Source: Terriglobia bacterium
GTDB lineage: Bacteria > Acidobacteriota > Terriglobia > Terriglobales > Acidobacteriaceae
Direction: 5' to 3'
Length of the DNA: 64,000 nucleotides
Assembly: GCA_020073165.1 (NCBI GenBank)
Contig: JAIQFP010000006.1
Span: 124,001 to 188,000 of the forward strand
In this document: in pieces, positions 1,106 through 4,650 of the stretch
Position numbering within the stretch: position 1 is the stretch's first letter
How the letters are laid out: every line of letters starts with the position of its first letter
Program-made: the position numbers and the translations under genes
The notes under the pieces: generated by a model
The model's input: only the letters and a program-made list of their open reading frames with translations
The model's database searches: none
Told to the model about the DNA's origin: nothing

Positions 1106-2101
1106 TTACTCCCTTTTTCCCAGGTTCTTCGGCAGGTCGGGAGGTGCAGGAGGAATCGACGAGGCCGGCCGCAGACCAGTCGCATTCGCATTGGCTGGAG
1201 CCGCGGGGTTTACCCCGAAATCCCAGACGTAGAGGTTCATGCCTTCTTTACCCAGCATCTCGACAACGGCGTACTCCCCGGGCGTGAGGGGCTCGGTGGG
1301 CGTCACCTTCACCCAGCCGCCAGTAAGCTGCTCGGCGTTGCTCGGAACCAGCTTCTGCTCCTGGCTGACCTTGCCGTAAACCGCGATCTTGATGTCGCCC
1401 ACGATGCGCTTGTCCCCTTTGGTCTGCACCCGCACAATGCGGAACCGGTCCCAGGGTTGTTCCGGCTCCTGGCTGGATTGTAGGGGCTGTTGCGGGTCGC
1501 TTCCGGCGGCTTGGTTCTGCTGCTCCACATTCACGTAGATCGAAGGCAGGGCGGCATGCGATTGAATTTTCGCGTGCGTTCCAGGGATCTCAATGCTCTG
1601 CTTGGAACTGGCAATGGGATTGATCGTCGCCCGCAGAATGTTTCCTGTCATGTTCTTCTTAACCTGGCTGCCCTGCTGCTGCAATTCGACCAGTTCCGGC
1701 TGGCCCTGGTAGGTATCGAGCAGCATGATGCCGCCGTCCTCGGGCAGGCGCAGGCCGGGCGCGACCTGGGGTGTCTTGAGCTCTTCGGCCTTGCGTTCCG
1801 CCTCCAGCTCCTTGTCAAGCTCCACCGCTTCCGGAGCGGGCTTCCCGGCGGCGCGGTCTTTCTCAAACTGCTCGGTCGCTGTCCAGTCCACCAGGTCTTT
1901 GGGCACTTCTTCCCACTCGTTGCGCTCCGCGCTGAGATAGCGGACGCGGTCGCCCTTCACCTCATACTTGGTGACCAGCTGGTAAGAACCGTCTTTCAGG
2001 ATCAGCCGCTTGGCGAGTTCCTGGGCGGAGGCCGAGTGCGCCACCACAAGGGACGACACTCCCAGCAGCAAACCGATCAGAATGAGGTAAAGGCGGCGCA
2101 T
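1106..2101 (-). CDS. Secreted hypothetical protein
   Basis: I do not recognise a named family. The 331-residue product starts with a clear Sec signal peptide (MRRLYLILIGLLLGVSSL, cleavage probably after AHSASA). A short strand-rich segment follows (RLILKDGSYQLVTKYEVKGDRVRYLS), then a charged Glu/Lys/Ala helix around residues 75-115. The second half is globular with strand patterns such as GDIKIAVYGKV and PLTPGEYAVVEM, ending in a Pro/Ala-rich tail. It is probably exported to the periplasm or outer membrane. It lies 49 bp downstream of the merB-like gene on the same strand and may share its transcript. The function is unknown. Confidence 0.75.
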   Translation of the reverse strand: MRRLYLILIGLLLGVSSLVVAHSASAQELAKRLILKDGSYQLVTKYEVKGDRVRYLSAERNEWEEVPKDLVDWTATEQFEKDRAAGKPAPEAVELDKELEAERKAEELKTPQVAPGLRLPEDGGIMLLDTYQGQPELVELQQQGSQVKKNMTGNILRATINPIASSKQSIEIPGTHAKIQSHAALPSIYVNVEQQNQAAGSDPQQPLQSSQEPEQPWDRFRIVRVQTKGDKRIVGDIKIAVYGKVSQEQKLVPSNAEQLTGGWVKVTPTEPLTPGEYAVVEMLGKEGMNLYVWDFGVNPAAPANANATGLRPASSIPPAPPDLPKNLGKRE

Positions 2102-2150
2102 AACCCCTATCCGTTAGATGCAGCCTGGCAGGCCCAGTTTACCCCGGACT

Positions 2151-2828
2151 TCACCCGGCAAGCCTCCAGAATTCCCCGGCCAGACCAATCCTGGCAAAGG
2201 CGGCCTCGGCCTCCTCCACGGTCTTCGGGCGCCAATCGGGACTCAATCGGTCTCCATACCACTCCTGGGCCAGCCGCCAGCCCTGATGCAACGTCAGGGT
2301 CCCTCCTCGAGGCCGGCCCCACAGCAGGCACCAGCGATCCACATGCTGTTCCGACCGGAACAGAAGCATGGTTTTTCAGGTGAATACGATGTCCTTATAC
2401 CAGTGGCGAGCGGGGACGGCAAAGTGGATGATTCCCCTGTGATCCAGCAGTTGGCCATCCTTCACCCGCAGCCCCATCTCAAAGTTGCAGCAGCCGCAGG
2501 AGGCCTGGATGCGAGCGTCTTTGTGCAACATGGCCGGAATCCCGAGCGCATCCCAGATACAGTTGCTGTACCAAGAGCGTTCCCCGACCTGCACCGGGAA
2601 GGCCGTGGGCACGGCCGAGAATGGGGCGGCGCGCCATAATTCTCCGTTCTCCTGTAGCACAAACGCGTGAGACTGGCTTAACCGCTGGAGTGCCGCTTTG
2701 GCTTGCCGCCGCCGACTTCCCAGCCCTTTGGCCATCTCTGCCACGCTTGGCGCCCGGCCTTTACGCAGAAAATGCCGATAGATGTACAGGCGCAACTTGC
2801 TGTCGAAGCCACCATATATCTCCGGCAT
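2151..2828 (-). CDS. MerB-like organomercurial lyase homologue, predicted selenoprotein (TGA at 2376-2378 read as Sec)
   Basis: Read through the TGA, this is a 225-residue protein close to MerB length (~212). The N-terminal part is a winged-helix-like module (RAPSVAEMAKGLGSRRRQAKA). It is followed by SNCIWDALGIPAML, matching the MerB Cys96-x-x-Asp99 motif as Cys90 and Asp93. The TGA is codon 151, in DIVFT-U-KTMLLFRS. Aligned by hand to MerB (CCHVHFFAS), it falls on catalytic Cys159. After the TGA the same frame continues 74 codons (EQHVDRWC, WYGDRLSPDW, FARIGLAGEFWRL) to a TGA at 2151. Established: MerB cleaves C-Hg bonds using Cys96, Asp99 and Cys159. Inference: selenocysteine replaces Cys159. 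The start at 2828 follows an AAGGGGG Shine-Dalgarno. The alternative is a Cys-to-stop mutation giving a pseudogene. The real substrate may not be mercury. Confidence 0.8.
2339..2371 (-). promoter_or_regulatory. Bacterial SECIS-like hairpin downstream of in-frame TGA
   Basis: On the minus strand, four bases after the TGA (2376-2378), CCATG (2371-2367) pairs with CATG-(T)-GG (2345-2339). After a CTT bulge, CTGTTCC (2363-2357) pairs perfectly with GGAACAG (2352-2346) around the tetraloop GGTC (2356-2353). The loop starts 19 nt after the TGA and has G in its first two positions, matching the published bacterial SECIS rules. The GGUC resembles the SelB-recognised loop of fdhF. The hairpin lies inside coding sequence, as bacterial SECIS elements do. 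Confidence 0.75.
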
Positions 2829-2964
2829 GCTGCCCCCTTGGATACATGTTACCTGCCGCGCTGGCCGACTGTTGAGTGCCAGTTTTCCACTGTTCCCTTC
2901 CCCGAAAAACTCTGGCATAATTGGTCGTGCACCCATCCTGCACAAAATTCCAAAGACAATTTAG

Positions 2965-4650
<1,686 letters not shown>

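Follow-up and report, generated by a model that had tools for sequence, protein, structure and literature searches.

The window, a 64,000-nt stretch of a contig from a soil acidobacterium within which the positions of Table 1 are counted, carries on its minus strand a frame that opens at ATG 2828, meets an in-frame TGA at 2376-2378 and runs on for 74 further codons to a terminal TGA at 2151-2153. The initial annotation had read the internal TGA as codon 151 of a MerB-family frame with a family-like continuation in the same frame. This is borne out: the frame stays open, and the read-through protein scores 99.3 bits against the Pfam MerB profile PF03243 (curated cut-off 27), with the domain lying on both sides of the TGA (60.5 bits for the part ahead of it and 19.5 bits for the part behind it, scanned separately). 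It is the sole PF03243 match found in the host genome. With the TGA read as selenocysteine (Sec, U), residues 150-151 form a TU motif, and near the C-terminus F220 and W221 are both invariant in the 25 rows of our alignment A1. Pfam HTH_20 matches the N-terminal part below cut-off only, and neither the window protein nor any of the seven relatives scanned scores over cut-off with an NCBIfam model.

Table 1. Features of the MerB-like gene in the window, and copies of the double-TGA family in other genomes
Feature	Position	Strand	Remark
MerB-like gene, predicted selenoprotein	2151..2828	-	225 residues with read-through of TGA codon 151; last codon TGA 2151-2153
TGA codon 151, predicted selenocysteine	2376..2378	-	MerB Cys159 column
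SECIS-like hairpin	2346..2363	-	7-bp stem, loop GGTC, starts 12 nt past TGA
Cys90 codon	2559..2561	-	MerB Cys96 column
Asp93 codon	2550..2552	-	MerB Asp99 column
Pfam MerB domain, residues 70-192	2253..2621	-	PF03243 profile match
Winged-helix-like N-terminal part, residues 6-53	2670..2813	-	Predicted structure; resembles LexA-type DNA-binding domains
C-terminal extension past the Pfam domain, residues 193-225	2154..2252	-	Ends with conserved FW pair
Possible ribosome-binding site AAGGGGG	2833..2839	-	Ahead of ATG 2828; assigned by eye
Double-TGA copies L040, L041, L042, L043, L059, L094, L101, L111			G259, G380, G104, G203, G121, G408, G327 twice

The gene is divergent from pyrG, on whose side genes for an OsmC-like protein, KdsA, an ion channel and a KpsF/KdsD-type isomerase are also located; the opposite side encodes a GAF-like protein and a 331-residue protein (1106-2101, minus strand) that comes after the MerB-like gene and has no Pfam or NCBIfam match. 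Judged by eye, pyrG adjoins the Sec-MerB gene also in the acidobacterial metagenome-assembled genomes (MAGs) L055 and L058. Also by eye, the gene that comes after Sec-MerB in L054, L055 and L056 encodes a protein related to the 331-residue one. None of the seven neighbouring genes scanned is a mer gene, and the best MerA (TIGR02053) match in the host genome reaches 338.2 bits, below the cut-off of 454.45, in contrast to the setting of mer-operon MerB. MerA exceeds this cut-off in 2 of the 24 genomes searched, a sample that included one genome without MerB match (G018); in one of the two, G379, its neighbour is a canonical MerB. Since MerA stays below cut-off in the host and the seven neighbours include no mer gene, the context gives no indication of organomercury, and assignment as a mer-operon MerB was rejected on the same grounds.

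Catalytic columns, predicted fold and known MerB-like proteins

Alignment of the A1 profile to PDB chains places C90, D93 and residue 151 on Cys96, Asp99 and Cys159, the catalytic residues of MerB, in agreement with the initial annotation, where the TGA had been assigned to the catalytic Cys159 and Cys96 and Asp99 were recognized as Cys90 and Asp93. Residue 151 likewise pairs with the cysteine in 'GTCKQI' of MerB2. In the C160S mutant chain 3f2g it aligns to the remaining cysteine, which fixes the register of the alignment. The predicted structure, computed from six sequences (pLDDT 80, pTM 0.79), is uncertain just ahead of Sec151 (residues 144-148, pLDDT <50). Its best structural match is MerB2 5c17 (Foldseek E 3.8e-12; VIA Z 18.5, 3.0 A over 188 residues), followed by seven MerB entries (Z 10.1-14.6) that match over both parts of the protein. 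We count the proposed MerB-like identity as established, and organomercury as a candidate substrate.

The window protein shares the fold and the three catalytic columns with MerB and MerB2, but has Sec in place of Cys159 as well as a C-terminal extension, and the NCBIfam MerB models remain below cut-off (46.4 of 193 bits and 30.1 of 200 bits). MerB-like selenoproteins as such are already known. A table in PMC9312934 (2022) lists an alkylmercury lyase MerB-like selenoprotein, and PMC13188914 (2026) names that accession SaoL, with motif CU, and assigns six selenoprotein genes to the SAO operon, citing Haft and Gwadz 2023. As described there, SaoL (NF040728) resembles the window protein in being MerB-related with one Sec; however, the SaoL model gives 47.8 bits against a cut-off of 140, which rules out membership, and the CU motif of SaoL differs from TU. 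On this description, the window clade is a separate variant. In the portions of the literature covered, including PMC9312934, PMC13188914 and PMC12013277, with Haft and Gwadz 2023 and Haft and Tolstoy 2025 outside the scope, we found neither the window clade nor a double-Sec MerB, and in the corresponding portion of the deep-Sep paper none of the nine new families is MerB-like.

Relatives, hairpin and selenocysteine machinery

In a phylum sample of 396 genomes, a search for PF03243 detected it in 29, at 34 places, 15 with one in-frame TGA, five with two and 13 without any in-frame stop; the remaining place, with three TGA and one TAG, lies below cut-off. The search of a class sample (399 genomes) with A1 matched 22, among which six more usable one-TGA copies were present. 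The tree additionally took in five named acidobacterial MAGs (L054-L058) and two plasmid copies. Left out were L044 (G349) and L045 (G005) as below cut-off, L033, L036 and L039 as distant, two G026:C336 pieces, the frame-broken L070, the partial or weak L088, L089, L095, L096, L103, L104 and L106-L110, and the duplicate places L071-L073, L078, L097-L100, L102 and L105.

The resulting 54-row tree holds a 39-row clade with the window gene (support 100/99), in which the residue-151 column reads TGA in 26 rows, Cys in 12 and Trp in one. Columns 90 and 93 are Cys and Asp, respectively, in every TGA row (26/26). The Cys rows (L032, L037, L068, L069, L079-L085, L093) instead carry a cysteine at column 93, that of the catalytic Asp (12/12), and judging from these residues the three-cysteine relatives may use a chemistry different from that of MerB. 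An example is the Sphingomonas panacis plasmid protein WP_069207870.1 (L069), annotated as organomercurial lyase, which shares the C-terminal extension with the window protein, but differs at the Sec and Asp93 columns as its group does. Since the 12 Cys rows form one group (100/99) nested among the Sec rows, Cys may here be derived from Sec, in a tree whose deep forks are weak. The Trp row (L035 1303-1968, in the SelA-bearing genome G167) carries TGG in place of the Sec codon, together with a Ser in the Cys96 column, and is perhaps a non-enzymatic descendant.

Behind the TGA, comparison of the window gene with six relatives yields dN of 0.11-0.26 and dS of 0.93-1.68, with dN well under dS in all six comparisons and a constraint similar to that ahead of the TGA or stronger; these codons are under purifying selection. 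The homologues accordingly display what the initial annotation had anticipated, namely TGA or Cys at the Sec column and conservation past it. An actinobacterial relative on the Rubrobacter radiotolerans plasmid NZ_CP007515.1 (L070 2935-3700) has TGA at the same column; its annotated merB stops exactly there, exemplifying the predicted failure of gene callers at this codon, and its frame is broken soon afterwards. Plasmid searches returned five records with the window protein and 39 with its relative L022; most of the 30 listed among the latter bear the annotation MerB or alkylmercury lyase, and three were examined further. Viral contigs, scanned twice, revealed no relative of the single-Sec clade or of the double-TGA family described below.

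The hairpin reported in the initial annotation, with a perfect 7-bp stem, a GGTC loop and 19 nt from TGA to loop (12 nt to the stem), is present in the window sequence. When the 40 nt from the TGA are folded, the structure of minimum energy has a somewhat different outer stem. Taken alone, the window hairpin is weak and not decisive evidence, being only modestly unusual (z -2.19, with 4 of 200 shuffles equally good) and retaining all seven pairs in 13% of synonymous recodings. An Rfam scan of 2000-3000 gave a single match (E 9.3) under the gathering score, and hence no named RNA family for the hairpin.

Covariation and recoding were assessed on 25 genes, i.e. 20 single-TGA genes and the second TGA of five double-TGA genes, later-found genes being left out; their 40 nt from the TGA align without gaps. 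Against shuffles that ignore relatedness among the genes, the stem formed by columns 16-22 and 27-33 has 96.9% of its cells paired versus 84.6%, its covariation score is 0.402 versus 0.172 (0/500 shuffles as high; slid versions <=0.143), and 21 cells are changed on both sides versus 6.2 (0/500). Two of the five covariation measures are less extreme than the rest: four pairs have double-sided change, reached by 28 of 500 shuffles, and nine further pair types occur in the stem, reached by 48 of 500. Synonymous recoding, equally blind to relatedness, leaves 143 +/- 3.6 of the 175 pairs, with a maximum of 157 in 5000 recodings, versus 170 observed. Compensatory changes include CUG/CAG versus CUC/GAG, and in the double-TGA genes the closing C-G becomes U-A with the GGUC loop unchanged. 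Conserved with such changes across relatives, the hairpin exceeds chance, and, judged by covariation and position, it fits the bacterial SECIS element originally proposed.

The machinery for Sec insertion, which the initial annotation had proposed to look for, is encoded in the host genome, an assembly of 4.6 Mb in 35 contigs with a stated completeness of 100: a tRNA-Sec with anticodon tca (70.3 bits), SelB (370.7 bits), SelA (535.3 bits, two pieces in one frame) and SelD (341.5 bits, two pieces; L049, G000 contig 2). SelA scores over cut-off in all one-TGA genomes searched (15/15 in the phylum sample and 6/6 in the class sample), a search that took in the genomes of 21 of the 26 TGA rows and left out MAGs L054-L058. 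With a base rate of 250 SelA-bearing genomes among the 396, the hypergeometric probability for the phylum sample is 0.0009, relatedness being ignored. SelA is also found in seven of nine genomes with full-length Cys copies, so that a Cys copy does not in general reflect loss of the machinery, nor does SelA dictate Sec; G352 and G618, with Cys copies and from the host's own family, have no SelA over cut-off.

As a separate observation, the host SelD gene has an in-frame TGA at 'AAGUASKLS', a known Sec site of this protein, and is a second probable selenoprotein of the genome; the host hence appears to use Sec elsewhere.

A related family with two in-frame TGA codons

A second MerB-like family, of which three members were scanned and gave 42-52 bits against PF03243, has a TGA at the Cys96 column ('AUAEDA' or 'AUGADA') and another at the Cys159 column, before 'FFWSEEHA'. 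Both are present in all eight full-length copies found, in seven genomes (Table 1), as is Asp at the Asp99 column (8/8), and the second TGA also occurs in partial copies in G164 and G263. In the family profile both TGA columns align to cysteines of MerB2, and the core past the second TGA, UCUUCUGGUCAGAAGA, is identical in 10/10. Past the first TGA, a CCUU...AAGG stem can be drawn by eye in 8/8, and is missing from the minimum-energy fold in L043, L059 and L094. SelA exceeds the cut-off in six of the seven genomes, the one without being G104 (750 contigs). One double-TGA protein, used in a plasmid search, gave no match.

In G203 (L062 1736-6245), three further genes continue the strand downstream of the double-TGA gene: one of 99 residues, then a second selA, and one that is selD-like and carries a fused CMD (AhpD-like) domain. 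The 99-residue gene (L062 5190-5486) has no Pfam or NCBIfam match. A relative with 60% identity over 80 residues lies on the opposite strand beside the double-TGA gene of G121 (L059 4681-4917); none was detected at the other double-TGA loci searched.

The family is a candidate double-selenocysteine MerB, with Sec apparently at both catalytic positions. We find it reasonably probable that in Acidobacteriota the MerB fold has given rise to two more selenium-dependent enzyme types besides SaoL, i.e. the single-Sec clade and a distinct double-Sec family in which both nucleophiles are Sec and each UGA has its own hairpin.

Proposed mechanism and competing explanations

MerB, the textbook enzyme for breakage of mercury-carbon bonds, operates with two cysteines and an aspartate. 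We propose that the window protein is very probably a MerB-fold enzyme in which the nucleophile equivalent to Cys159 is Sec, and infer that in the cell it is inserted at the UGA by SelB and tRNA-Sec via the adjacent hairpin. In such a scheme, UGA 151 would be decoded by these two components, guided by the hairpin directly behind it. The Sec151 selenolate and the Cys90 thiolate would then grip the metal atom of the substrate, an organometal or organometalloid compound, with Asp93 protonating the carbon leaving group. Selenium might provide faster and tighter metal capture, or access to a substrate that is poorly attacked by thiols. By analogy, we lean slightly towards the protein working as MerB does on a compound of this kind, and judge the overall explanation, a Sec151 MerB-like metal-carbon lyase, to be quite likely.

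Standard gene callers do end the gene at the TGA, as would be appropriate for a true stop in a decaying or truncated MerB, and a sequencing error would have the same appearance. Both are very improbable. The same column is TGA in 26 of 39 rows, which argues against an error in one assembly, and the dN/dS values past the TGA, the covarying hairpin and the Sec machinery of the genome speak against decay and error alike; a pseudogene or sequencing error was therefore rejected. Reading of the UGA as another amino acid such as Trp, for which the TGG of L035 could be cited, is less probable still, and we discarded it given the Cys in 12 rows and the host tRNA-Sec. Furthermore, the window gene itself terminates with TGA, and L035 has also lost the Cys96 equivalent, like a decayed site.

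Alternatively, the MerB-fold selenoprotein may bind without cleaving, as a trap or sensor: a soft metal such as Hg(II) would be held by Sec151 and Cys90, and the winged-helix-like N-terminus would be regulatory. Selenium binds mercury very tightly, which could slow turnover; in the host, no MerA over cut-off is available for released Hg(II), and the N-terminus of the model resembles LexA-type DNA-binding domains. However, MerB itself has such an N-terminus, and the MerB entries match the model over both parts. Moreover, all 26 TGA rows retain the Asp responsible for product protonation in MerB, together with the arrangement of both nucleophiles. A trap or sensor is thus doubtful, and a metal-carbon lyase is more likely, given that the Sec clade has retained this Asp.

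Standard gene calling stops at the UGA and loses the catalytic residue, and surveys of mercury genes may misread such genes. The preferred reading as a metal-carbon lyase points to organometal chemistry in soil acidobacteria away from mer operons. If the second family is what it appears to be, it would represent a U-D-U catalytic triad for the breakage of metal-carbon bonds; none of the copies found is a Cys form. The two columns would then offer a natural series on the MerB fold, from Cys-Cys through Cys-Sec to, apparently, Sec-Sec, and with it a direct test of the role of selenium in metal-carbon cleavage.
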